Shown here piece by piece: positions 12,169 to 32,125 of a DNA stretch of 32,135 nucleotides. The notes beneath the pieces were generated by a model, which did no database searches, was not told where the DNA came from, and worked only from the letters and a program-made list of their open reading frames with translations. Position numbers and translations under genes: made by a program. Origin of the DNA: a virus; IMG/VR virus record IMGVR_UViG_3300020317_000005, positions 1 through 32,135 of that record; one strand, 5' to 3'. Numbering within the stretch: the first letter of the stretch is position 1; each line of letters begins with the position of its first letter.

Positions 12169-15100
12169 ATGGCACAAGAAATTAAAAACACATTTCTAAA
12201 ATCCAAGATGAATAAAGATCTTGATGATAGAATATTGCCTAACGGCGAATATAGAGATGCTCGGAATATATCTGTTGGTAGATCCGAAGATAATAATGTT
12301 GGTGCCTTAGAAAACATATTGGGTAATGAACTTGTTACGGGTACAGACATAGGTGCTAACCTGACTGTTATAGGAATTTTAAATGATAACTCTAATGACA
12401 AGTTATTTTTATTTTTAACAGATTATACAGATACTGACCCTAATAATCCAACAAATGCTCCGTCAACTTCAAAACATTATATATATTCATACAATAGCGT
12501 TACAGGAAACTATACTCTTTTAGCGCAAGGTGAGTTTTTAAATTTTTCAAAAACAAATCCAATAATAGGTATAAATTTAATTGAAAACCTTTTATTTTGG
12601 ACAGACAACAGAAACCAGCCTAGAAAAATTAATGTTAATTTAGCGGTTACTTTTTCGCCTTTAGTAGGGGGAGAGGATTATTATAAAAGAGAACATCAAA
12701 TATCTGTTGCTAAATATAATCCATATCAGACTATTGAATTATACAATAGAGCTGATTTGCAGGTTTTAGCTGGAGCAACCACAACTTTGATTGAAGTAGC
12801 TGGTGATAGATTAGCTGAGTTAACGCCTTTTATAGGTGGTACAGCTGTGTGCGCTGAAGCCGCTACTCCAACATTTGGTACTGATTATGTTAAGATTACA
12901 AACGTTACTTTAATTGCTACAACAGGGCCGACAAGAATAGCTCTTTCACCAGCATTAAATTCAGCACCAACTGTCAATCAATATGTATCGCTCATAAAAT
13001 CTACTATGAGCAATAAAAACGATGATAGCACATGGCCTGGGGATCCAAACTTTTTAGAAGATAAATTTGTTAGATTTAGCTATAGGTTTAAATTTGATGA
13101 CAACGAGTATTCTTTGATGGCTCCGTTCACTCAAATAGCATATATACCAAAACAAAATGGATATTTTATTGACGGGGATGAAGATGCGGCCTATCAATCG
13201 ACTATAGTGGGCTTTATGGAAAACTTAGTTCAAAATATTGGATTAGTTATTCCTTTGCCTTGCTCTGCCAATAACCTGGTATCTGATTATAAAATTAGTG
13301 AGGTAGAAATATTATTTAGAGAGAGCGACGGCATCGCAGTTAGGGTGCTGGATAGTGTTCCTGCTGGGGACATATCAGGAGAAATTGGTATTAGTAATTA
13401 TTATACTTATGAGTACCAATCAAGAAAACCTTATAGAACATTGCCAGAAGCACAAACAGTGCGGGTATATGATAAAACACCAGTAAGAGCGTTAGCTCAA
13501 GAATCATCTGGAAACAGAATAATATATGGTAATTATATAGACCAACAAACACCGCCTGATTCTATAAACTACAATTGTAGAATAGCGAATAAATCTAGCA
13601 CGGGTGTTTACAATAACTTTATAGAATATCCTAATAGCTCTGTTAAAAGAAATAGAAACTACCAGGTAGGATTTGTTTTATCGGATAAGTTTGGAAGACA
13701 ATCACCGGTGATATTATCTTCAGTAGATGCTGGTTTAGAAAATAGCGGGCAGTTTTATGCGGGGTCAACAATATATAGCCCTTATGATTTAAGTTCAGGA
13801 GATACAGATGTTATAACTTGGTTTGGTGACGCTATTCAAGTTCTTATTAATGAGCCAATAGCATCGGAAATAGATTTTTCTACGGGTACGCCCGGGCTAT
13901 ATGCTATAGAACAACAAGCTGTGTCTACTGGTAAAGGATTTGCAGTGTCAGCCGGATTTGTAGGAACGCCTCCAACTATATCTGGAAATACATATACATT
14001 TACATTAGATGATGGTGTTGGAAGATTTCCAAACAACGTGAACGTGCCAGTAAAAGATGCTCAAAATTATTTAAGAGGTGCTTACGAAGACTTCGTTGAA
14101 GTTACGAATGTTGTGAATACAGTAGGTTCTACCTATGTAATAACAACAGACGGCCAAGTAAACGATCTTTACTTAAGAACTGACAATATACCAGCAGGCG
14201 ATCCTGATTTAAAATTTGCATATACTATTAATGATTTAGGATGGTACAGCTACAAAATTGTTGTTAAACAGACCGAACAGGAATACTACAATGTATATTT
14301 ACCTGGTTTAACTAATGGTTATCCTGGACAAGTTGCTTCTAAAGCTACTACTGATGGAGCTTTCCCAACAGATGAAGTAAATTTAACAGCGCACACTGTA
14401 CTATTTAATGATAACATTAATAAAGTACCTCGTGATTTAGCAGAAGTTGGACCTGATCAAAAACAATTTAGAAGCTCTGTAACTTTATATGGTAGAATAA
14501 CCAATACTTTAGGTACCGCAGCAACAACATCTAATGAACAATACTATCCTAGATTAATTGCTACAGGTAAAAACGCTGTCGATCATACAGCAATAGCAAT
14601 AGCAGCAGCTGATGATTTTAACATGAGCTTTAGCGATCTTTCTACATTAACTTCCGGGGATTCTACTAATGGTATTAACGGTAATTTAGCATTTTACCAA
14701 ATAGAAACTAATCCTTTAATAGCTAGAATATCAACAACCGAAAAATCTATTGGGGCAACTGTCAATGACAATACATCAAGTAGTAGCAACATGCTGCCTT
14801 TCTTAGCAATATACGAAACAGCCCCTGTTGAGTCTTTTCTTGACATATATTGGGAAACTAGTTCGGAAGGATTAATAGTTGATTTAAACACAGATATTGC
14901 ATCTAGTAATTCAGGTGCAGTTGCATTTTCTGCAATTGGGTGGGATTTTACAGAGGCAACAACAACCGGAACAACGGTTAGTGCTTTTTTCCAGCCAATA
15001 GATAATACAGGAGCTACCTACGTAGCCACTCCAACAGCAGAACTTGTGTCTGCTATAAACGGAGTCGCTGGAAATGTTGATTTTTTCCAATTAAATGCAG

Positions 15101-16863
15101 GTGCGGTAGGAACAGCTAATGAGGGTAAGTTTCAATTAGAATATACCGGAGCTGGTATAGTTTATACCGAATCAAGTCCTTTAGTAGATATTTATACTTT
15201 TGTTATAAGAGTTACTACGTCAACAGGGGATATAAGCGATATTCAAATAGGCGGTGAAATAGGAGGCGTAGGCGCATTAAAAAATCTACAACCTAGCTTT
15301 GGCACTATAGCTAATAAAGTTAAGACAATAAATAGTAGTGTATTAATACCAGTGGGCGATTGGTCTACAGCGGCAAACGGAACGGCTTTAACGGGAGATT
15401 CCAAAAAACAACAATTAAAATTTACATTTGAAGGCACAGGTGGTTCAGACATACCAGATAACTGGGTTATGGACCCTAACAGCGGAAAATTAACACAGGA
15501 CATTCCTGACGCGGACTTTACAGGAAATCCTTTAGCAGTATACAATATTACGGTAAGGCTATCAGATGCTAACGGTATCGGTACTCCCGTAAACGCAGCC
15601 TCAGGATATACTTCATTATATGCGGAACAAGCTGTTGAAATAAGAATGCAGCCCGCAGCGGTTAATGCTGGAGCCCTCAGCACCACCTGCACAACTGACC
15701 CCGCTTCTCCTCCCGCTGGTACCGTTATCGATCCTGCCACAGGTGTTGTAGGCCCTTTTAACAGTGCTACCCAGCAAGTTGCTTGCGTTTATTATGTATC
15801 GGCAACAAATTTAACGCCAGGAGGGATAACCGATAATTCTGTATTTTTTGACAATGGAATAGAAAATCCAGACGATAACGAAACTATTAACGTTGTTAAT
15901 TACAGGATAGGTACGGATTGTCATAAGGTTGGTACTATATCATTTAGTTTAAATACTTATTCACCTTATAATGGTAGTACTAACAACATAAACTTATTTA
16001 AAACGCCCCTTATTACTTTTTATTATAGAGCATTAGGCGAAACGCAATGGTTGCCCGTGCCAAGAAGTACTGAGCATAATGGGGTTGGTCTATCGAATGA
16101 CATACAAAGTCCGGAATTAGATTTTCCAACAATCGTGCAGTCACTTGAACTTTCTAATACGGTGGTAATCGATGTAGATAGACTGATTTTAGATTACGGG
16201 CCAGATGATGTTTGGGTACAAACAATAAGAGCATTTGATTATCAAGACTTCGATATATCAGGGTCTATTGTAGCAGGTGCGGATGGTATAGAGTACGCAA
16301 TATTAGCAGATAATATTATTCAACTGAATCCAAATTCAAAAGCTAATGGGCTAGTTAGGTTTTGGGTGATAGCTGATGATTTAGAATACCCGACGTGTGT
16401 TCCTTGGCAAAGCAAAAATGCCGTAACTGAAAACGGAGGAGCTGGTAATTTATTTGAATACAGAAGATCTACAGAAACTAGTAGTTCAACAGGATTCAAC
16501 GCGGCAACTGTTGGTTCTGTTTATGCAAGAAGCCCTTACGGCGATTATGTTAACGAGTTTTACACAGGCGCAACTAATTTTACCCCCTATATTCCTTCAC
16601 TGCCATACATAAACACTAGGCTATTAAGAACAATTGGTACAACTTTAGATTCTTGGACCACGTTAAATGATCCTCCATTACCAGCATATGATTCTCCAGG
16701 TGGAGGCCCTGCTACAGATGTGAATGTACAATGGGTGGTTGGTTACGATACGACTAACGGTAAAAAATTGCCAAGAATTAGCGGGGTTGGAGCAATACAA
16801 ACAACTGGTGACCCGGCATCAATCCAATACAATCGAGGCACTTTAAGAATACATAAAAATTAA
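12169..16863 (+). CDS. Tail nozzle / stabilization protein (muzzle-like), large part
   Basis: A 1564-aa protein, probably the beta-propeller nozzle closing the short tail. The N-terminus (FLKSKMNKDLDDRILPNGEY, then RNISVG and ENILGNELV, residues 9-56) is typical of the P22 gp10/T7 gp12-like stabilization family as seen in crAss-like phages; NLLFWTDNRNQPRKI at 140-154 and DKFGRQSP near 506 are blade-like motifs. Residues about 1035-1150 resemble a cadherin/Ig-like domain (PDNWVMDPNSGKLTQDIPD, then YNITVRLSDANG), possibly surface-exposed and host-facing. The C-terminal region (about 1210-1564) is again beta-rich. No enzymatic motif was found. The next gene appears to carry the remainder of the same nozzle. 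Confidence 0.8.
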   Translation: MAQEIKNTFLKSKMNKDLDDRILPNGEYRDARNISVGRSEDNNVGALENILGNELVTGTDIGANLTVIGILNDNSNDKLFLFLTDYTDTDPNNPTNAPSTSKHYIYSYNSVTGNYTLLAQGEFLNFSKTNPIIGINLIENLLFWTDNRNQPRKINVNLAVTFSPLVGGEDYYKREHQISVAKYNPYQTIELYNRADLQVLAGATTTLIEVAGDRLAELTPFIGGTAVCAEAATPTFGTDYVKITNVTLIATTGPTRIALSPALNSAPTVNQYVSLIKSTMSNKNDDSTWPGDPNFLEDKFVRFSYRFKFDDNEYSLMAPFTQIAYIPKQNGYFIDGDEDAAYQSTIVGFMENLVQNIGLVIPLPCSANNLVSDYKISEVEILFRESDGIAVRVLDSVPAGDISGEIGISNYYTYEYQSRKPYRTLPEAQTVRVYDKTPVRALAQESSGNRIIYGNYIDQQTPPDSINYNCRIANKSSTGVYNNFIEYPNSSVKRNRNYQVGFVLSDKFGRQSPVILSSVDAGLENSGQFYAGSTIYSPYDLSSGDTDVITWFGDAIQVLINEPIASEIDFSTGTPGLYAIEQQAVSTGKGFAVSAGFVGTPPTISGNTYTFTLDDGVGRFPNNVNVPVKDAQNYLRGAYEDFVEVTNVVNTVGSTYVITTDGQVNDLYLRTDNIPAGDPDLKFAYTINDLGWYSYKIVVKQTEQEYYNVYLPGLTNGYPGQVASKATTDGAFPTDEVNLTAHTVLFNDNINKVPRDLAEVGPDQKQFRSSVTLYGRITNTLGTAATTSNEQYYPRLIATGKNAVDHTAIAIAAADDFNMSFSDLSTLTSGDSTNGINGNLAFYQIETNPLIARISTTEKSIGATVNDNTSSSSNMLPFLAIYETAPVESFLDIYWETSSEGLIVDLNTDIASSNSGAVAFSAIGWDFTEATTTGTTVSAFFQPIDNTGATYVATPTAELVSAINGVAGNVDFFQLNAGAVGTANEGKFQLEYTGAGIVYTESSPLVDIYTFVIRVTTSTGDISDIQIGGEIGGVGALKNLQPSFGTIANKVKTINSSVLIPVGDWSTAANGTALTGDSKKQQLKFTFEGTGGSDIPDNWVMDPNSGKLTQDIPDADFTGNPLAVYNITVRLSDANGIGTPVNAASGYTSLYAEQAVEIRMQPAAVNAGALSTTCTTDPASPPAGTVIDPATGVVGPFNSATQQVACVYYVSATNLTPGGITDNSVFFDNGIENPDDNETINVVNYRIGTDCHKVGTISFSLNTYSPYNGSTNNINLFKTPLITFYYRALGETQWLPVPRSTEHNGVGLSNDIQSPELDFPTIVQSLELSNTVVIDVDRLILDYGPDDVWVQTIRAFDYQDFDISGSIVAGADGIEYAILADNIIQLNPNSKANGLVRFWVIADDLEYPTCVPWQSKNAVTENGGAGNLFEYRRSTETSSSTGFNAATVGSVYARSPYGDYVNEFYTGATNFTPYIPSLPYINTRLLRTIGTTLDSWTTLNDPPLPAYDSPGGGPATDVNVQWVVGYDTTNGKKLPRISGVGAIQTTGDPASIQYNRGTLRIHKN

Positions 16864-21391: not shown

Positions 21392-24300
21392 ATGTTTAAA
21401 TACCTAATAAACAATAAAGAAGTTACTTTTGAAAATAGAGCCGATCTTATAAAGGCTTTAGAGGAAGCTGAAATGATGGGATATTCAATAGAGGATATCA
21501 CCGACAAAAAAGAAAAGCCTAAGAAAAAAGAAGAGGAAAAAGACCCAATACTAGCAAGTATTGAGGCTAATACTCCAAAAGAGGATTTTACACAAGGCCC
21601 TGTAGAGCGTGCGGATGCAGCGTCGGAAACTGTAGCACAAGACGGTATGGTATCACCGCCGGCAGATGGTTCTTTGGGTTTTCAGCCAATACCGCTAGGT
21701 GATGGCACAATGCCTGATGTTGGTGGCTCCGTGCCGTTTTCAATAGATGGCAAAGAAGTTACTGAAGAAGAATATAAAAAATATGAAGAGTCTTTAACTC
21801 CGGTTCCAGAATTTAATCCCTATATATCAGATGTAGTTGAAAGGAGTAACTTGCAGCAAGAACTAGAGCAAACCCAACAAGCGATTGAATCTACTCCCGC
21901 TATGTCAGAAGAGTACAAGGGCTTATCCAAAAGGGCCGCTGAACTGCAATCTATGCTTGATGAAAGTGTAGGGGATAGACTTTTTTCTATATACGGAATG
22001 CCAGATGGTATTGAAAAAAATCAGGCTATTAGTTTTTTAACTGAAGACCAAAAAAATGTTTTTAATGCTACTATAGAATTATCTAAAGACACAGGTGGAT
22101 ACAGCGCTGCGCTTGAGTATGATTCAGAAAAAGATTTAGAAACAGCAATGAATCAGCTGGATGGTCCATCGGAAGACGGCATGATGACGGTGGCCCCTAA
22201 AAGAAATAAGCAATATTTATTTGGCAATGTGCAGCGTCTTGTAAATGAAATGTTTGGTTTTTCTAAAGATACCGCACCTAATGAGGTTGTAAAATATGAT
22301 AAAGAGGTTTATTCTTTAATTGCACAAGATTTATTAAAAAATAAAGCAACAACGGGTAGATTAAATTACAATACACTTACTCTAACGCAAAAAAACAACC
22401 TAATAAAAGAAGCTAGGATTAATGCTTATAAAAATGCAAGCCAACAAAACAAATCGGAGGCTGAAGCAACTAATTTAGATTTTATTAAAAATACTACTAT
22501 TATACAAAATCAAGCGGCTCAGTTGTCTGCAGAAATAAAAGAAATTATAGGCAGCACTCCTAAAAATATGCTTACCCAAGCTCAGGTTGATGCTGTTAAT
22601 ATTAGAATAAAAGAAATAAATAGTTTACAGGCTAAGCTAGACCGAACTCAATCTGAAGCAAAAGATAAATTTAATCAATTAGTTACTAGCCAAGAAACTT
22701 TAGCAGGAACATATAAAATTGATACCAACAAGGAAACCATAGGCAATGTTTTTAAAAAATCTGATTTAATTGAGCAATTTAAAAAGCAACAAAGTGCTAA
22801 TTTAGGGGGGTGGGCTAAAGGCATAAATAGTACTCTACAAGGCTATTTTCAAATAGCATTAGAGGCAGAAGTAGCGTTACCTACAATGTTTCTAGCCAAA
22901 GGGGGTTCTCTTTTGCTTGGAGCTATGACTGATGATTTTGACTCTTACAATATATACGATGCTTTTGTAGATACCGCAGGCAACAACCTTAGCTACGACG
23001 CTTTAGGAGTAGAGGCTAGTACAGCTTTTGAAGGTGGAGGGGGTGTTCTTGATCAATCCGCTTCTGAATTGTTTGCTTTAGGTGGAGAGGGGCTAGGATT
23101 TACCCTTCAATTAATGAAAAAAGGTAGGAGTGGTCAAATTAAAAATATGCAAAATTCCATAGGTAAATTAACAAAGCCTGGAAGCAAATTTAAAAGAATT
23201 TTTTCTAATGAAAATGTAGAATGGATAACGGCTAAAGCAACTATGGAAGCTACACTACTTAGCAACTACACTGCCGCATTAGATTCTGGTATGGATAAAA
23301 ATGACGCCCTTTTGTATTCTACTGAGCAATCGCTTATGACCGCTGCGGTGCAGATGATATATCCAGATATTAAAATGGTAACCCCTGCTCCTGCTGTATT
23401 GAAGCAAATTAAGGGCTTAACAGGAAATCTACGTACCGCTGCTATCAAAAAAGCAGTTTATGGCACCGCTGCTAAATTACTAGGAGGCGTTTCAATGGAA
23501 TACCTTGAGGAGCTTACGGAAAGTGTTAGCGAAAGAGCTCTTAACTTATCGTTTGCTATAGACAATAGCGAGTTTATGGGAGGCGATTGGTGGATTGAAC
23601 AAAAAAAATTGATGGCTAGCACGCTTATGATAAGCGGTCCATTGTCGGGTGTGGGTGCTGCTAAAACAGGTATGAACATCTATGACAATTTCATGGGCGT
23701 TGCGGATTGGCAAATGAAGAATGTAATAATGACCTTTGACACTCAATTATCGGCGTTAAAAAAAGAAAAGGCAAAGCCTGGTAGTAGTATAACTGATGAG
23801 CAAATAACAAAACTAGAAGAAGCTATAAGTTTAGCTATAAAAGTACAAACAGCAATAAATAGCTCCCCTAAAAATGTTACTGGACAGGAATTAGAATTAC
23901 TCGTAGAAAAACAAAGGTTAATAGAAGAAAATAAAAAATTAGACCCCGCTTTTCAAAAAGAAAATAATGATAAAATAGAAAAAATTGATCAGCAAATAGC
24001 GGTGGTTAATAAAGAAGGTAAAACAGCTGTATTTATACAAGAAGCAGTTGAAGGTGATGTTAAAAGAGCCGAGGCTATAAATAAAGAGTTAGGATTAGGG
24101 GCGTCTATACAAGCGGCAGAAAGCCAGGAGGACTACGAAAAACAAATAGAAGCCACTAAAAATACTCGGGCAACAGACAAAAACGGTGTTCCAGTTGAAG
24201 TTAAAAGTGACGGATTTGGAGCTATAATACCGATGGCAGACGGTTCGGATGTCATAATATTAAATAAGCAAGCCGCAATAAGGGGGGGTAGAATAAACAC

Positions 24301-27300
24301 TGCTGCCCATGAGCTACTGCATAGGTATTTAAAAAATTCGTTAACGGACAAGGGTATGAGCATTAACGAAATAGGAGCTGCTTTAGAGGATTATTACCTC
24401 AGCTTAGGCCTTCAGTCTAATAAAGAATTTGAAGTTAGGCGTGCCCAATATGCGGAGATGTATGGGGGAGTTATAAAAAATAAAGCGGGACAAGAGGTTC
24501 CTGATTATAAAAAAGCTAGAGAAAACAGCGTTTATAACGAAGAAATGCTTACTCTGCTTAGTGAAGCTATGCTAGACAACAAGGTAAAATCCGGAGACGG
24601 AAGAATAGCTAGCTTAATAGATTCTGTTAAAAGAATGTTAAATTTAGGCAAAGACATATCTTTAGATGATGGAGCAAGCGTATTTAATTTTGTTAAGGAC
24701 TACAACAGATCTATTAAAAAAGGAAAGGCTTCTAAATCAATAAAAAAGGGAGTTGCTGGAATAAAAGGATCTTTGGTTAAAAAGCAAGGCGAAGTTTCTG
24801 AGCCCACTTCAAAACAATCAATGCAAATTGAAGGTTTAGAACAAACTTATTTTGATCTACAAGATCAAGCTGCGGAGGATCCAAACAATTTAGCTTTATA
24901 TGAAAGAATGGAAAAAGCCGGTGATGCACTTGATGCAGCGCTTGCCGCCCCAGCTACAGAGGCTACGCCTATGGCAGAAGCTGTTCAGGAAGCTTCTAAG
25001 GAGGTAATAGTTAGGCCTAAAGCAGATAAGTCTAAAAGAAAATATTCGTTAGATAAAGAGGTTAAAAAAGAAATAGAGCCTAAAATAGCAGAAGCGCAAA
25101 AACTAAACAAAGAGCTGATAGCACAAGAAAAGAAACTGAACGCTGACGCTATTGCAGAAATCGAAGCTATTGATGACAATGTTGAGAGTAGAACAAGTCG
25201 GGAAAAAAGAATAGTTGCTTTAAAAAACAAGCCATTAACTGTAAGAAAGCCACCTGCTCTTAACAAGCTAGAAAAAGAAATAACAGAAGCTTTAGAAACA
25301 CCTATAAACAAAGCGGTAAACTTATTTACTAAGCTTTATTACGATAAAATTGCTAAGAATGCAACCGCTGCTGTAACAAGAGAGGAGTTTATGCAATCGG
25401 CTAAAGCAGAAATAACAAGTCTTACTATTAACGAATTTAAACCTGAAACTATAAATAGAGCAGGGGAAGATGTTATTAACGACATCGAGGATATTATATT
25501 TCAAAGAGGGGGGCTTCGTCTTAGAAACTTAGCACAAAGACTAGGTGTTATAGGCAAGGACCAAGGTATATCAAGAGGAGCCGAGGCCTTAACTAAAATT
25601 GCTGCAGAAGATTCAACTACAACTGCTGAGCCTGCTGAGAAAAACCTAGACAGTGGCTTTAAAGGTGAAATAAGAAAGCCTAGCGCACTATTAGCGGATG
25701 AGTCTCTTATAGAGCAAGCTAAAAAGAAAATTATACAATTTTGGGAAACAAATAAAGGTAACAAAAAAGTAGAAAACTTTAAAAACTTACCAATTATTAT
25801 TGATTCTATATTAGCGGAAGTATATGGTATTAGTCTAGACACTTTAACAGCAAGGTCTGGTAACTTTAACAAAGTAACATACCAAAACGCAATTACAGCT
25901 TTTACTACAAAACAGGCCGTATTTAGAACAGAAGAAAACGGAGAAATGGTAGAGGTAAGGGTGCCTTACGATCAAAGAGACGCTAAATTAGAAGAACTAG
26001 AAAATAAAGCTAAAGAAAATTCTAATTTTACTTTTGAAGAATATTCGCCGGAATCTAGAGCTGAGGGCATATTAAGATTTTTACCGGAACTCAGTGTTCC
26101 TGAATATAAGTACTTTAGTGGAAAAAGGGGTAGAAGCGCTGGTAAGTCAACTGGTATGCCTAGAAGCTTTACAAGTCTAGCATACTTAGTTACAGGAAGA
26201 AGAACTCAAGCTCAGGGAAACAGAGAAGGGGAAATTCAAAAAATATCTAGAGAAGAGCTATTGGAATCAATAGGAGCTATTGACGATAGCAATGGAAATG
26301 CAGTACCAGATGTAGCTAAGGCTAGAGAAGCGGGCAAAGCGATTAATAAAATGCCTGGTGCGCAAACCTTACTAAGTTTGATAAAGCTAGAAGGTCGTAT
26401 GATAGCAAATCAGATGAGTAGGGAATTTGGTAACTTAGATCCTCTGACAGAGCTAGACATTAAAATGGGTAAAAATAAAACAATGTACTCTGCCCCCCTT
26501 AAAATTATCCTTGCTCCTGTTAACATAGAAATGTTTAAGCCTGAAAATTTTAAAAATAAAGCAATACCCTACGAAGCTGCAGATGAAATTTATAAAATTT
26601 TAAATAAGGAAAATAAAATAAGAAAAAAGAAGCTAAATATAATTGATGTATCTAATATAATTTTAAAGCAAACTGCTAAAAGCTACGGACGAGAAGTAGG
26701 AGCTGTATATAGAAATGCGGCGCTAGATGTTATGCAAAAATTTGACGCTGTTGGTTATAAAATAGCGGAAGCTAAAATAAAGTTAATTAAAGATTTACAG
26801 TATTCTTTTGGTAAAGCTTTTAAATATGTTATACAAAACAAAGCAATTAACAAAGAATGGGGTAAAGTAGAGGCTTTAAAAAAGAAAGGAGTTTCAAAAG
26901 AAACTAAAATACAGGTTATAAAAGATTACGTTGAAAGATGGAATAGAGCCGGTAGAGATATAGATTACAGATTTGACTTTGATTTTTTAAAAGCAACCAA
27001 CAATACAGCTGTATTTGACGCTATTAAAGAAGCAACAGGACTTAGCGATACTCAATTAAAAAACCTCGGCTTTACATTAGAAAAAATAGGGGGGCTAACT
27101 ACTATAAATTTTGAAGGAAAGCCTTTAAAGCTAAGCACATCTGCGGATTCGCTTAAAAAAGATCTTAATAGCGCAGACGTTGCAAAAAATAATGCAGCGG
27201 CCATTACTATAAATAAAGAAGCGGGTACTATAAGAAAAGTTATGTTTGACGTACTTGACCCGTTTATTAAAAAAGGAGATATAGAAGGAGCAAAAGCAAT

Positions 27301-30300
27301 GTTGGCTTTAATGGATCTTAGCCAAAACGGAATTGCTAGAAAGCTAGGCAAAATGGGGAGCTTAATAAAGATGAACGCTGATGATAAAACCATATTGGAT
27401 CATAATCCTAGTATGAGTGATGTTAACGCAAAAATTATTGAGTACATAGAAGGAAAAAGAAGTAAAACTTCTTTGAACAGCTATTTAGATAAAACTACCA
27501 TAAACAATATATCTGAGCAACTGAACGATCTACTAGATTTAAAGGGTGGTTTAGATAGCAAAAGGTACGATGTTTTAAAAAATACATACGCTAAAATTAA
27601 TGTAAATTATGCCGCAAAAGAAGTAGCTATTGCAAAAGAAAATAAAAATTCTTTGCCATTAAACCTTCGCCAAGAGGGGATTAGCTTAGAAGAGTCTATA
27701 AAGCGAGTTGAAAACTTTGATAAAGCTATAACTTTAGGTAATAGTTTAGATCAACCTACTAAAGGCATTAGTGTTTGGGATTTTGATGACACATTGGCAA
27801 CAACTAAAAGCAATGTATTATTTACAATGCCTGATGGCACTAAAGGAAAATTAAATGCATCGAGATTTGCTAAAGAAGGGGACGCTATGTTGGCAAACGG
27901 CGCTAAATTTGATTTCAGTGAATTTAGCAAAGTAATGAATGGTGGCAAAGGCCCGTTCTTCAACAAGGCTGTAGACAGAAACAGAAAGTTCGGTAACAAA
28001 GACGTTTATATATTAACAGCTAGGCCAGCTAATAGTGCTAATGCTATACACGAGTTTCTTAAGGGCATTGGCCTTGACATACCACTTGCCAACATTACCG
28101 GACTTGCTAGTTCAGATCCACAGGCTAAAGCTAACTGGGTTGTAGGTAAATTTGCAGAAGGATATAACGACTTTTACTTTGCAGATGATCACGTAGGTAA
28201 TGTTAATGCAGTAAGTACTGCGCTTTCTGCTTTAGACAATGTAAGAAGTAATGTTGAGCTTGCTAAAGCCGCAAGGTATTCTAAGAAAATACGCAGAGAA
28301 TACAGTACAATACTTGATAAGCTACGAGGAGGCGATGTGATAGAGGGCAATAAAGTGTTCTCAGCAGAGCAGCAAATAGACGAGGTATTCGACTGGGCTA
28401 ATTCTTTAAACATACCAGAAAAGAACAAAGGTAAGTATAAAAGAGCAGCATTAAACTTTGTAGCAAAAAGCCCTACTAATTTCCCTGTTGATGCGGAAAT
28501 TGTAAACGAGGCTATGCGAATAGCCGAGCTGAAGAAGCTGGACGTGATGAATTTTAATAATCCACGCGAAATTATAGATAAATTTGCAGGAGAAGTTAAA
28601 GCTAAAAGATTAGATCCTAATAAGGAAAAGGAATTTTTTAATAAAAAATCTTTACCAGAGGGGGTAGAAACATTTCAAATAATGCCTAATCGCTGGGGGC
28701 AACTAGCCGTTAGAAAAATGTTAGATACTCATTGGGGAGAAAAAACCAACCCTTGGTGTGTAACAGTTCAAGAGTCAGGATACACAGCTGCAGAACAAAA
28801 AGAATTAAAAGAAAACCCTCCTTTTCTTCCAGTTGGAACTAAAAGTGTAATACAGTACGAAGCTATAGTCGATGCCGGCGTTGTGGTAAAACAAGCGTTT
28901 GATAATGCAAGGATCCCAGAAACACGAGAGCTTCCACTTGACTTTGTTGGTAATTTAAAGACAGGTTGGGTCGCAGGAGAAACAACGTATGAAAGTGTAG
29001 AGTTTGATGATACTAAAGCAATACGGGAACGCAGCCAAGCTGATTATGACAGGGAACTTGCTGCTCGTGAAGCAAAAGGTTTTAAGGTGGAGGAAGGTAG
29101 TTTTAGTACAAAGGAAGGTATATGGTTTGCTCGTATACTACGCAATAATGACCCTAAAGTAAACAAGGTTCGTCAATACACTACTTACTACAAAGCTAAA
29201 AACCCGAACATGACTCAAGAGGAGTTTGATAACGGGCCTGCTAAAGGTGGAACTGTTAAAAACCCGGAGATAACGCCTACTGGCCCAGTTGAATTAACTT
29301 TCGGGTCTCGTAAAATGTGGAGAAATTACGGCAAACCGATTAGCCGCGAATTTGTTAACGAAGATACGGGAGACGTGGAGGTTGATGATGGCGGTTTTGA
29401 AATAGCATTTAAAGATGGTAAATTGCTGGGCCTTAAAAATCTAGGTGGACAAAAGCAACAATGGTTTGATAGAATGGATACAGGTACAGATCAATTGGCT
29501 TTAAACGTACCTAGAAATGCTAAAGGTAATATAACTGGACAGTCTACCATGATGAATACCGATTCAGGTAAGGTATTTAAAAAAGATTATACTGAGTTGA
29601 CTAGGTACTCTAAAAAAATAGAGCCTACACTTAACAATCTTATAGATAAGCTTTCTACTAAAGGTGATGCAGTTAATTCATCAACAACTAATTTAAAAGC
29701 ACAGCCTAAAGAAGTTAAAGAAGTAATCAATACTCTTGATGTAAAAAGTGATACGCAGCAAGCTAGAGTTAGATACAGCATGGATCTTAATAAAAGGTTT
29801 AATGAAATAATTGAGGAAAAATCTGGTATAGAATCATTTAAAGAATATCAATCTGTTAAAGCCGGAAAAAAAGGCGCTAAAAAAGGTAGGCTTAGTTTCT
29901 TTATTCCGCCGTCAGCAGAAGACTTCTTGGGGCTGCTATATAAAACCTTACCCAAAGGTAAGAAGGGCGAATCAGCTATGGCTTTTTACAAAGAGCATTT
30001 GATTGACCCTTATTGGAAAGGTGTTTCGGGACTTAGAACACAAAGAATATCAATAGCTAAACAGTATAAAGCACTTAAAAAAGAACTGGGTATTGTACCA
30101 AGAAAACTTAAGAAAACTTTTAAGTATGAAGACGAAAACGGTAACATGAAAGAAAGTCTATTTAGTAAAGAAGATGCTATTAGAGTTTATGTTTGGGATT
30201 CTCAAGGGCTTGATATAGAAGGCTTATCAAATGTAGACCTACCTGTTCTTGTTAACTATGTCAACTCCCAGCCGGATTTAAAGGCATTTGCTGATAAACT

Positions 30301-32125
30301 GCTAGAGCTTAACAAAAACAATCCTCCTAAAGCACCAACTGAAAGCTGGCCAGGCGGTACTATAACATCCGATTTACTTAACACGTTGAATACCGAGGGT
30401 AGAAAAAAAATGTTAGAAGTATGGCAACAAAACGTTGACGCTATATTTTCAAAAACCAATCTTAATAAATTAGAAGCCGCTTTTGGCGCTAAGTATGTTG
30501 AAGCATTAAAGTCTTCTTTAGACGCAATGGAAACTGGCAAGAGCTCAAAGCCTACAGGCAATAGAGTTACCGATGGATTTGTTAGATGGTTGAATGCGGC
30601 AGTAGGTAACATTATGTTCCTTAATAGAAGATCTGCTGTATTACAGCTAATATCTTTCACTAACTTTATAAACTTTGAAGGCAATAATCTTTATCAGGCA
30701 GGTAAAGCGTTTGCTGATCAGCCGCAATACTGGAAAGACTGGGCAATGCTGATGAATTCTGATTATTTAGTAGATAGAAGAGATGGATTAAAAATCAACG
30801 TAAATGAAGCGGATATTGCTACAACAGCAAAAGAAAACGGATTTCAAGGAGTATTAGCAAAGGTTTTGCAAGCAGGATTTACACCCACTAAAGTAGCAGA
30901 TAGTGTTGCAATAGCAACCGGTGGGGCCACGTTTTACAGGAACAAAGTCAATGCACTGGTTAAAGGAGGAATGAACCTAGCAGCTGCAGAAAAACAGGCT
31001 ATGCTAGAGTTTATGGATGTTGCGGAAAAAACTCAGCAGTCTAGCGATCCTATTATGACATCTAAGCAGCAAAGAGAGCCTATAGGGCGCATCATATTAG
31101 CCTTTGCTAATACGCCTTCGCAATATGCTAGAATAATAAAAAGATCCACACAGGACCTTATAGCAGGCCGTGGCGACCCTAAAACGCATTTGTCTAGAAT
31201 AGCTTATTACGGATTTCTTCAAAATGCTATTTTTAATTTCTTGCAACAAGGAATGTTTGCCGCTATGATGGGAGATGATGATGACGACGAGGACGATAGC
31301 GAAACACCAGAAGCTTTAGCAAAACAAGAAGAAAGCAAAAATAAAAAAATGTTTAAAGTTGCAAACTCTATGACGGACGGTATACTCAGAGGAACAGGAG
31401 TTGGAGGAGCTATAGTGTCTGCAGTTAAAAACTTAGCTATAAAGTTTTATGAAAGATCTCAGAAAACAAGGAATCAAAGGCTAGCAGAAACATTAAAAGA
31501 TGGCGTAACAGCTGTATCGCCTCCGCTTTCAAGTAAGCTAAGCAAAATTGGTAAAGTAGGTAACTCTCTTGAATGGGGTAAAAAAGAAATAGAATTTGAC
31601 GAAATGTCTTTGAAGCACCCTTATGTTACGGCAGCTAGTAATGCAATTGCAGCAGCTACTGGTCTTCCAGCTGATAGAGCGGTAGGTATGGCAATCGATG
31701 CAGTTGATATAGCTAGCAGTGAAACAGAAACATGGATGAAGCCATTGATTGCTTTAGGGTGGCCTAAGTGGCAATTGATGTCGGAAGAAGATACACAAAA
31801 GGAAAGAGAAGAAAAAAAGGAAAGGTTTACGGAACTAGAAGCTGACAAGGAATTTCAAGAACTTAATCCTACTGAACAAAGAAGGTCTGTATTGAAAAAG
31901 CTGAGTAAGAAGGAACAGGAAAAAATACTATGGAATTCAGGGGTTCTAACTAGAAAGCAAATTAGAAATCTTAAGTCCGAAGCCAATAGAGTAGATAAAA
32001 TTATGGCTCTTAGGGATAAAAAACAATTTGAAAAAGACATGGAATCCCTTAGCAAAGGCGGAGACATATTGCCTGAGCCAAAAGTTACAAGACCCCCAAC
32101 CAAAAGAAAAGACTCTTTAAAATAA
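21392..32125 (+). CDS. Giant modular virion protein: zincin peptidase, HAD domain, unknown modules, membrane-active C-terminus
   Basis: A 3577-aa protein filling a third of the window, last of the presumed ejection cassette. Order: short N-terminal domain and charged/Pro-Gly linker (1-135); helical region with hydrophobic patches (about 485-520 and 745-775); zincin-type peptidase site HELLH 973-977 with probable third ligand near E1051/E1058; linkers; helical unknown region (1219-2119) with SGKRGRSAGKSTGMP at 1576-1590; HAD domain (about 2120-2290); unknown module with NPWCV and WFDRMD (about 2414-2735); C-terminal ejection-like part (2797-3577) with a hydrophobic stretch ending at 3293 and an acidic run at 3295-3302. 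[R/K]YS motifs sit at 1217, 2295, 2738 and 2794. The layout fits the 'polyvalent protein' class (multi-domain proteins of phages and conjugative elements that enter the cell with the DNA). Delivery and self-processing are inferred. No RNA polymerase motif was recognised. Confidence 0.85.
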   Translation: MFKYLINNKEVTFENRADLIKALEEAEMMGYSIEDITDKKEKPKKKEEEKDPILASIEANTPKEDFTQGPVERADAASETVAQDGMVSPPADGSLGFQPIPLGDGTMPDVGGSVPFSIDGKEVTEEEYKKYEESLTPVPEFNPYISDVVERSNLQQELEQTQQAIESTPAMSEEYKGLSKRAAELQSMLDESVGDRLFSIYGMPDGIEKNQAISFLTEDQKNVFNATIELSKDTGGYSAALEYDSEKDLETAMNQLDGPSEDGMMTVAPKRNKQYLFGNVQRLVNEMFGFSKDTAPNEVVKYDKEVYSLIAQDLLKNKATTGRLNYNTLTLTQKNNLIKEARINAYKNASQQNKSEAEATNLDFIKNTTIIQNQAAQLSAEIKEIIGSTPKNMLTQAQVDAVNIRIKEINSLQAKLDRTQSEAKDKFNQLVTSQETLAGTYKIDTNKETIGNVFKKSDLIEQFKKQQSANLGGWAKGINSTLQGYFQIALEAEVALPTMFLAKGGSLLLGAMTDDFDSYNIYDAFVDTAGNNLSYDALGVEASTAFEGGGGVLDQSASELFALGGEGLGFTLQLMKKGRSGQIKNMQNSIGKLTKPGSKFKRIFSNENVEWITAKATMEATLLSNYTAALDSGMDKNDALLYSTEQSLMTAAVQMIYPDIKMVTPAPAVLKQIKGLTGNLRTAAIKKAVYGTAAKLLGGVSMEYLEELTESVSERALNLSFAIDNSEFMGGDWWIEQKKLMASTLMISGPLSGVGAAKTGMNIYDNFMGVADWQMKNVIMTFDTQLSALKKEKAKPGSSITDEQITKLEEAISLAIKVQTAINSSPKNVTGQELELLVEKQRLIEENKKLDPAFQKENNDKIEKIDQQIAVVNKEGKTAVFIQEAVEGDVKRAEAINKELGLGASIQAAESQEDYEKQIEATKNTRATDKNGVPVEVKSDGFGAIIPMADGSDVIILNKQAAIRGGRINTAAHELLHRYLKNSLTDKGMSINEIGAALEDYYLSLGLQSNKEFEVRRAQYAEMYGGVIKNKAGQEVPDYKKARENSVYNEEMLTLLSEAMLDNKVKSGDGRIASLIDSVKRMLNLGKDISLDDGASVFNFVKDYNRSIKKGKASKSIKKGVAGIKGSLVKKQGEVSEPTSKQSMQIEGLEQTYFDLQDQAAEDPNNLALYERMEKAGDALDAALAAPATEATPMAEAVQEASKEVIVRPKADKSKRKYSLDKEVKKEIEPKIAEAQKLNKELIAQEKKLNADAIAEIEAIDDNVESRTSREKRIVALKNKPLTVRKPPALNKLEKEITEALETPINKAVNLFTKLYYDKIAKNATAAVTREEFMQSAKAEITSLTINEFKPETINRAGEDVINDIEDIIFQRGGLRLRNLAQRLGVIGKDQGISRGAEALTKIAAEDSTTTAEPAEKNLDSGFKGEIRKPSALLADESLIEQAKKKIIQFWETNKGNKKVENFKNLPIIIDSILAEVYGISLDTLTARSGNFNKVTYQNAITAFTTKQAVFRTEENGEMVEVRVPYDQRDAKLEELENKAKENSNFTFEEYSPESRAEGILRFLPELSVPEYKYFSGKRGRSAGKSTGMPRSFTSLAYLVTGRRTQAQGNREGEIQKISREELLESIGAIDDSNGNAVPDVAKAREAGKAINKMPGAQTLLSLIKLEGRMIANQMSREFGNLDPLTELDIKMGKNKTMYSAPLKIILAPVNIEMFKPENFKNKAIPYEAADEIYKILNKENKIRKKKLNIIDVSNIILKQTAKSYGREVGAVYRNAALDVMQKFDAVGYKIAEAKIKLIKDLQYSFGKAFKYVIQNKAINKEWGKVEALKKKGVSKETKIQVIKDYVERWNRAGRDIDYRFDFDFLKATNNTAVFDAIKEATGLSDTQLKNLGFTLEKIGGLTTINFEGKPLKLSTSADSLKKDLNSADVAKNNAAAITINKEAGTIRKVMFDVLDPFIKKGDIEGAKAMLALMDLSQNGIARKLGKMGSLIKMNADDKTILDHNPSMSDVNAKIIEYIEGKRSKTSLNSYLDKTTINNISEQLNDLLDLKGGLDSKRYDVLKNTYAKINVNYAAKEVAIAKENKNSLPLNLRQEGISLEESIKRVENFDKAITLGNSLDQPTKGISVWDFDDTLATTKSNVLFTMPDGTKGKLNASRFAKEGDAMLANGAKFDFSEFSKVMNGGKGPFFNKAVDRNRKFGNKDVYILTARPANSANAIHEFLKGIGLDIPLANITGLASSDPQAKANWVVGKFAEGYNDFYFADDHVGNVNAVSTALSALDNVRSNVELAKAARYSKKIRREYSTILDKLRGGDVIEGNKVFSAEQQIDEVFDWANSLNIPEKNKGKYKRAALNFVAKSPTNFPVDAEIVNEAMRIAELKKLDVMNFNNPREIIDKFAGEVKAKRLDPNKEKEFFNKKSLPEGVETFQIMPNRWGQLAVRKMLDTHWGEKTNPWCVTVQESGYTAAEQKELKENPPFLPVGTKSVIQYEAIVDAGVVVKQAFDNARIPETRELPLDFVGNLKTGWVAGETTYESVEFDDTKAIRERSQADYDRELAAREAKGFKVEEGSFSTKEGIWFARILRNNDPKVNKVRQYTTYYKAKNPNMTQEEFDNGPAKGGTVKNPEITPTGPVELTFGSRKMWRNYGKPISREFVNEDTGDVEVDDGGFEIAFKDGKLLGLKNLGGQKQQWFDRMDTGTDQLALNVPRNAKGNITGQSTMMNTDSGKVFKKDYTELTRYSKKIEPTLNNLIDKLSTKGDAVNSSTTNLKAQPKEVKEVINTLDVKSDTQQARVRYSMDLNKRFNEIIEEKSGIESFKEYQSVKAGKKGAKKGRLSFFIPPSAEDFLGLLYKTLPKGKKGESAMAFYKEHLIDPYWKGVSGLRTQRISIAKQYKALKKELGIVPRKLKKTFKYEDENGNMKESLFSKEDAIRVYVWDSQGLDIEGLSNVDLPVLVNYVNSQPDLKAFADKLLELNKNNPPKAPTESWPGGTITSDLLNTLNTEGRKKMLEVWQQNVDAIFSKTNLNKLEAAFGAKYVEALKSSLDAMETGKSSKPTGNRVTDGFVRWLNAAVGNIMFLNRRSAVLQLISFTNFINFEGNNLYQAGKAFADQPQYWKDWAMLMNSDYLVDRRDGLKINVNEADIATTAKENGFQGVLAKVLQAGFTPTKVADSVAIATGGATFYRNKVNALVKGGMNLAAAEKQAMLEFMDVAEKTQQSSDPIMTSKQQREPIGRIILAFANTPSQYARIIKRSTQDLIAGRGDPKTHLSRIAYYGFLQNAIFNFLQQGMFAAMMGDDDDDEDDSETPEALAKQEESKNKKMFKVANSMTDGILRGTGVGGAIVSAVKNLAIKFYERSQKTRNQRLAETLKDGVTAVSPPLSSKLSKIGKVGNSLEWGKKEIEFDEMSLKHPYVTAASNAIAAATGLPADRAVGMAIDAVDIASSETETWMKPLIALGWPKWQLMSEEDTQKEREEKKERFTELEADKEFQELNPTEQRRSVLKKLSKKEQEKILWNSGVLTRKQIRNLKSEANRVDKIMALRDKKQFEKDMESLSKGGDILPEPKVTRPPTKRKDSLK
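24164..24721 (+). other. Zincin-type metallopeptidase region inside the giant protein
   Basis: Residues about 925-1110. The core is AAHELLHRYL with the HExxH zinc site at residues 973-977, preceded by strands (GFGAIIPMADGSDVIILN) as usual in compact zincins, and followed by a helical part with NEEMLTLLSEAMLD, where E1051 or E1058 could be the third zinc ligand (gluzincin-like). Peptidase domains of this compact kind are common in multi-domain phage proteins and are thought to cut the host's proteins or the carrier protein itself. Which of these applies here cannot be read from sequence. Confidence 0.72.
25040..25048 (+). repeat. KYS junction motif (residues 1217-1219)
   Basis: KYSL follows a Lys/Arg cluster (ADKSKRKYSL) after the low-complexity Pro/Ala/Glu linker that ends the peptidase part, and precedes a charged helix (DKEVKKEIEPKI). 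It is the first of four [R/K]YS motifs placed at module boundaries of the giant protein. Confidence 0.5.
27749..28261 (+). other. HAD-superfamily phosphatase-like domain inside the giant protein
   Basis: Residues about 2120-2290. Motif I is VWDFDDTLATT, with the nucleophile D2130 and D2132 in the DxDxT pattern. Motif II is VYILTARPA with T2209. A lysine in KANWVVGKF probably serves as motif III. Motif IV is YFADDHVGNV with D2265 and D2266. All four are in order, so an active phosphatase is plausible. The segment of about 70 residues between motifs I and II would be the cap. HAD enzymes of phages act on nucleotides or DNA ends (as in T4 Pnkp) or small phosphates; the substrate here is unknown. 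Confidence 0.85.
28274..28291 (+). repeat. RYSKKI junction, copy 1 (residues 2295-2300)
   Basis: The hexapeptide RYSKKI directly follows the HAD domain. At DNA level it matches copy 2 (29603-29620) at 16 of 18 bases; both differences are third-codon positions. It marks the left border of the NPWCV/WFDRMD module. Confidence 0.65.
28631..29596 (+). other. Unidentified module with NPWCV and WFDRMD signatures inside the giant protein
   Basis: Residues about 2414-2735. Recognisable points: an aromatic/charged opening, NPWCVTV at about 2453-2459 (W2455, C2456), a beta-rich middle (KSVIQYEAIVDAGVVVKQAF), then RKMWRNYGKPISREF, FEIAFKDGKLLGLKNLGG and QQWFDRMDTGTDQLA (W2691 to D2696). I have seen WC...AF+GKL...W+R.D patterns in other large phage or mobile-element proteins, but know no assigned function. 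C2456 with nearby acidic or aromatic residues might suggest a thiol enzyme; that is speculative. Confidence 0.5.
29603..29620 (+). repeat. RYSKKI junction, copy 2 (residues 2738-2743)
   Basis: Identical at protein level to the hexapeptide at 28274-28291 and 443 residues downstream of it. It closes the NPWCV/WFDRMD module. Confidence 0.65.
29771..29779 (+). repeat. RYS junction motif (residues 2794-2796)
   Basis: QQARVRYSMDLNKRF: the fourth [R/K]YS motif. It is preceded by VKEVINTLDVKSDTQQA, which resembles the helix just before copy 1 (VSTALSALDNVRSNVELAKA). It marks the start of the C-terminal ejection-like part. Confidence 0.5.
29780..32122 (+). other. C-terminal ejection-like region of the giant protein
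   Basis: Residues 2797-3577, largely helical. It contains NRRSAVLQLISFTNFINFEG near 3079-3097, ILAFANTPSQYARIIKRS near 3233-3250, a hydrophobic stretch (YYGFLQNAIFNFLQQGMFAA) ending at 3293, an eight-residue acidic run at 3295-3302, Gly-rich TGVGGAIVSAV, and a strongly charged C-terminal 100 residues. This mixture of amphipathic helices and one membrane-compatible segment fits a domain that lines or anchors a DNA-ejection conduit. No lytic transglycosylase or lysozyme motif was seen. Confidence 0.5.

Follow-up and report, generated by a model that had tools for sequence, protein, structure and literature searches.

The window, by which we mean the whole stretch of 32,135 nucleotides that was analysed (positions 1 to 32,135 of IMG/VR record IMGVR_UViG_3300020317_000005), carries a block of virion genes comprising GroES, terminase, portal, head genes and muzzle and ending, as the last gene of the structural operon, in a giant open reading frame (21392–32125, plus strand, as are the parts of it described below) that encodes a protein of 3577 aa. 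The block is ordered as in two cultured marine Bacteroidota phages, Cellulophaga phi38:1 and Flavobacterium elemoF, in which the equivalent of the giant gene is annotated as 'structural protein'. The product of the muzzle gene (12169–16863) matches Pfam PF25731 crAss_MUZ above cut-off (2.9e-11); with a crAss muzzle and head genes upstream of the giant gene, the block is of the Crassvirales type. The same 1564-aa muzzle protein weakly resembles, at residues 1363–1415, the poly(A) polymerase central domain, below cut-off (E 0.0067). Used directly as query against named phages, the giant protein gave zero matches; its gene position and the 'structural protein' label in the relatives suggest that it is probably packed in the virion and then ejected.

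Polyvalent proteins are very large multidomain chains with a zincin-like MPTase, characterized by HExxH and a downstream Glu, and with interchangeable modules (Iyer 2017, PMC5512222). The window protein resembles them in its length, in a zincin-like region that has HExxH and the downstream E1051 together with a weak fold match, and in its HAD module, variable modules and conserved C-terminal part. Over the whole window protein none of the curated polyvalent-associated domains (LPD, ART-PolyVal, PBECR) was found as a Pfam family, and the tested members of homologue groups A1 and A2 likewise gave no polyvalent-associated Pfam family.

We compared the window protein with homologous giant proteins of crAss-like phages, a set of 33 "giants" that includes the window protein itself. 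Its zincin-like metallopeptidase region spans residues 780–1140 (23729–24812), with HELLH at 973–977 and E1051 as the candidate third ligand. A HAD-like module at residues about 2122–2290 (27755–28261) matches phrog_415, a polynucleotide kinase family (E=5.5e-5), and is found at 41–58% identity in about 15 homologues. Homologue comparison delimits an inserted module, here named NPWCV/WFDRMD, at residues about 2330–2737 (28379–29602); it has no credible match in Pfam and is present in only 3 of the 33 giants (the window protein, L116 and L119). The conserved C-terminal part spans residues 2797–3577 (29780–32122); query residues 2794–3577 have homologues in 34 of the 42 records searched, the longer matches at 36–91% identity.

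A preliminary description of this DNA drew attention to four [R/K]YS tripeptides in the giant protein as candidate processing sites, and these occur exactly as described, as does HELLH at 973. They are KYS1217 (SKRKYSLDKE, 25040–25048), RYS2295 (AARYSKKI, 28274–28282), RYS2738 (LTRYSKKI, 29603–29611) and RYS2794 (RVRYSMDL, 29771–29779), the last at the N-terminal edge of the conserved C-terminal part; EYS at 2303 is a further aromatic-Ser tripeptide. Their placement at module boundaries fared better than their count, in that homologue coverage of the window protein steps at 2292–2324 and 2773–2803 and that alignment breakpoints fall near such sites (see below), but the four are not independent. 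The same junction, LDxVxSxxxxAxxRYSxxxxxxF, is found at both 2295 and 2794, flanking the NPWCV/WFDRMD module, and L118, which is without that module, has one junction only. On this comparison one junction has been duplicated to give 2295 and 2794, and 2738, which resembles the first copy, is probably a copy as well, so that the four window sites are to be counted as two or three independent events.

The number of [RK]YS tripeptides is 4 in the window protein against 0.85 expected by composition (Poisson P(≥4)=0.011), yet of the 297 [RK]xy tripeptide classes 3 exceed expectation by as much in this protein, so that once selection is allowed for the count is no more than chance would give; [RK][FY]S occurs 4 times against 2.03 expected (P=0.15). 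As a class, [RK]YS is too narrow, since homologues use Phe as often as Tyr, and we dropped the tripeptide as such, [RK][FY]S being only 1.45-fold enriched in the 33 giants, for a longer motif. Comparison of the crAss-like giants with polyvalent proteins of Clostridia gave the loose form h-[RK]-[FY]-S-[K/L/R/h], in which h is hydrophobic, with typical forms of roughly I-K-F-S-K or L-R-Y-S-K. In the 33 giants [ILV][RK][FY]S[KL] occurs 24 times against 2.3 expected. Polyvalent proteins from bacterial genomes were then included, and copies whose flanks resembled one another were counted as one, contexts being clustered at a threshold above the 99.9% random score (a cut-off at score 30 was dropped because it merged unrelated flanks); the tight form [ILV][RK][FY]S[KLR] was left with 14 independent contexts against 3.6 expected. 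With the Ser swapped for T, A, N, G or D the tight form falls to 0.5–0.8 of expectation, with E it stands at 1.3, and with [NQ] substituted for [RK] at 2.2. The motif Ser is encoded 25 times by TCN and 23 times by AGY. Since both codon families are used, selection on the motif, as read from its codons, is at the protein level and keeps the Ser as an amino acid, not as a stretch of DNA; a DNA-level recombination seed, which we had also considered, is ruled out by the same codons.

Sequence comparison places the motif at the seams between modules. Downstream of the peptidase, 76% of motifs have a breakpoint in the alignment of homologues no more than 10 residues away, against 26% of random positions, a proximity reached in 0 of 1000 random draws; control motifs were mostly near background. 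Leaving aside the C-terminal-junction class, the other 17 sites behave similarly (65% against 27%, P=0.0005). One pair of close relatives is the clearest case: L113 residues 1–1672 correspond to L110 1–1666 (75% identity) and L113 1665–2103 to L110 2421–2859 (92%), leaving in L110 an extra cassette (residues 1660–2421, about 756 residues) with KFSL at both ends, and the breakpoint falls within the motif itself, near L113 residue 1666. In this pair, as aligned, a single motif remains after loss or gain of a module. In L105 a module of about 190 residues is flanked by two copies of the junction S[KP]xQQx[RK]xKFS.

The sites had been described as lying between domains and not inside them, and in AlphaFold2 models none is seen inside a confidently folded core, the first of two models being the informative one. 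In that model (residues 780–1260) KYS1217 has pLDDT 31–37 and is directly N-terminal to a predicted helix. The model of residues 2090–2900 is poor (mean 49.8); in it the HAD-like domain has pLDDT about 70–83 up to residue 2290 and values are below 50 from about 2293, right after the domain, so that 2295 and 2738 are low and 2794 is about 50.

Conservation at aligned junctions had been set beforehand as a test of the processing reading, and homologues without the motif there as one of the things that would speak against it. At the aligned C-terminal junction the motif is found in 14 of 32 giants and missing from 18, several of which have near-misses such as KSS, KLS, KHS and RNS; by the rule just given, this speaks in part against processing. 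KYS1217 is kept as DKSxR[KR]YSL[DE] in all five members of its subclade (the window protein, L116, L118, L119 and L088), the linker N-terminal to it varying in the most distant of the five. The giants of Flavobacterium elemo phages and Cellulophaga phi38:1 share gene order and position with that of the window. They differ in having no junction motifs and no detectable sequence match to the window protein in the phage collection; the elemoF (Elemovirus) giant, of 3694 aa, does have HEIFH, and in phi38:1 gp101, of 1691 aa, both motif and HExxH are missing. Because it is absent at the C-terminal junction of 18 of 32 giants and from both cultured relatives examined, the motif appears to be common yet not required. 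This speaks against a universal cut that the proteins could not do without, and agrees with a feature belonging to certain modules. Two giants, L108 and L109, are without both HExxH and the junction motif, and have ASKK at the aligned place.

The claim of a metallopeptidase in the same chain is supported: H973, E974, H977 and E1051, a zincin arrangement, are invariant across 16 aligned homologous sequences, and the modelled region is alpha/beta with zincins ranking top in a fold search, weakly (best E 0.04). HExxH is found in 30 of the 33 giants, and in proteins with HExxH 52 of 54 loose motifs lie C-terminal of it against 66% expected by length (P=7e-8, shared ancestry uncorrected). Presence of the motif showed no significant association with presence of HExxH (Fisher P=0.28). 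The motif occurs without HExxH in L090, L285, L288 and L293. The window protein and L119, 74% identical downstream of residue 1136, have the same four motifs despite peptidase regions that give no BLASTP match to each other, which suggests that no single peptidase subtype explains the motifs they share. The window peptidase region (23729–24812) is about 23% identical to that of L116, while the rest downstream is 53–74% identical in these two relatives; by this measure the peptidase seems either to have been exchanged or to evolve very fast.

The motif is also found between domains of Clostridial polyvalent proteins, identified through ART-PolyVal. Pfam domain LPD23 starts at the motif in these proteins (748 versus motif R747, and 448 versus R447), as does PBECR5 (942 versus K943, and 591 versus K592), and in five of them ART-PolyVal ends 6–8 residues N-terminal to the motif. 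LPD38 proteins of gamma-proteobacteria have VRFSRS and ARFSRS. A held-out Clostridial set chosen by LPD3 contained 10 loose motifs against 3.95 expected (P=0.007), which is supportive of a wider motif, if modestly; ArdC-type conjugative proteins were tried as a control and were of no use, their matches being short frames. The seam motif, broader than the four sites first described, is a real feature of giant proteins from phages of unrelated bacteria and may mark points of cutting. A broader proposition is that h-[RK]-[FY]-S-[K/L/R/h] would be a common processing or recognition code, shared by polyvalent proteins of marine Bacteroidota phages, of Clostridia and of gamma-proteobacteria, by which the same class of peptidase could free any module joined through it; we consider this doubtful.

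Internal head proteins of T4 and phiKZ are cut by prohead proteases at short recurrent motifs, which end in Glu. The window motif is instead basic-aromatic-Ser. In P1, Pro cleaves DarA (PMC12810830). Proteolysis of packaged proteins is the principle that the window protein, if it is cleaved, would share with T4, phiKZ and P1 DarA. Processing of polyvalent proteins by their zincin has already been argued (Iyer 2017, PMC5512222), with no junction motif described in the main text of that paper, unlike the case here. Gp45, gp46, gp47, gp49 and gp50 of crAss001, a phage whose muzzle protein is related, are large cargo-type proteins that can be likened to the window protein by kind, and the text describing them reports no such motif or cleavage (PMC10172136). 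In the open-licence literature we found no report of an RYS, KYS or KFS motif in phages and no earlier description of the present motif and its seam position; the zincin processing idea itself is older.

As the best explanation, held tentatively and taken as a whole at somewhat less than even probability, we propose that the giant, built as a chain of modules that can be exchanged, serves a crAss-like phage as a cargo protein of the polyvalent type, and that the [R/K]YS sites are copies of a recurring short linear motif in flexible linkers at the module seams. The most likely role of the linker motif would be recognition by a peptidase that separates the modules, at whatever time cleavage would take place, and the first candidate for this peptidase would be the zincin, N-terminal as it is to almost all motif copies. 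Cleavage by the embedded zincin is thus the leading reading, unproven, and docking is its main rival. Several things count against processing: N4 packages its virion RNA polymerase without processing, although that protein contains an MPTase domain (Iyer 2017, PMC5512222); the motif is missing at 18 of 32 junctions and in both cultured relatives; motif and HExxH are not significantly associated; and the window protein and L119 share their four motifs with unmatched peptidase regions. If the motif instead served docking or packaging, its binding partner would be a chaperone or a component of the capsid, portal or tail, and modules would be loaded or threaded correctly without any cutting. A position in flexible linkers at seams would suit docking equally well, the motif occurs in proteins without HExxH, and the crAss001 cargo, which occurs in virions and from them is believed to leave in a partly unfolded state, is presented in that text without mention of cleavage (PMC10172136). 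Yet many giants at the same genomic place, the cultured ones included, are without the motif though they too need packaging, and the Clostridial and gamma-proteobacterial occurrences would demand a common partner in unrelated virions; we regard docking as rather unlikely.

The remaining readings dispense with any trans-acting partner or present function. The motif might be a structural hinge, [RK][FY]S capping the helix with which the following module opens, so tolerating fusions and being kept at seams for folding. KYS1217 does directly precede a predicted helix, helix-like stretches (such as SKKIxxxxxxIIDKL) follow 2295, 2738 and 2794, and near-misses such as KSS, KLS and KHS are tolerated, all of which a hinge would explain; it would not explain why T, A, N, D and G, some of them also helix caps, are not enriched in the place of the Ser, or why the sequence after the motif differs so widely (KFSLAEEENG, KFSLSTKADSKW and RYSFAGENA, for example), and we judge it unlikely. 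An inherited scar, left by duplication and recombination of one ancestral junction, would accord with 2295 and 2794 being copies of one element that 2738 resembles, and with the L110/L113 breakpoint inside the motif. It is made improbable by the use of Ser codons from both families and by the convergence of unrelated flanks on the motif in several phyla. Chance, that is, four tripeptides of a common kind in a long protein rich in Lys and Ser, would suffice for the count in the window protein, which is not significant after selection; the comparative enrichment and the seam position largely refute it, and it is very improbable.

That polyvalent proteins can contain embedded peptidases has been known since 2017. 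The seam motif would supply precise candidate cut positions, make module borders readable from sequence, and indicate which fragments of giant injected proteins work independently in the host cell. Should it serve for docking and not for cutting, it would still be a joining rule shared by phage proteins across bacterial phyla.

The giant gene of L100 is split over several frames close to the C-terminal junction; a natural fission was considered and rejected, the breaks being most likely frameshifts and probably sequencing errors. A small group of giants (L093, L094, L096, L097 and L112) carries another peptidase signature, LHELxHxQI, and has almost no seam motif.
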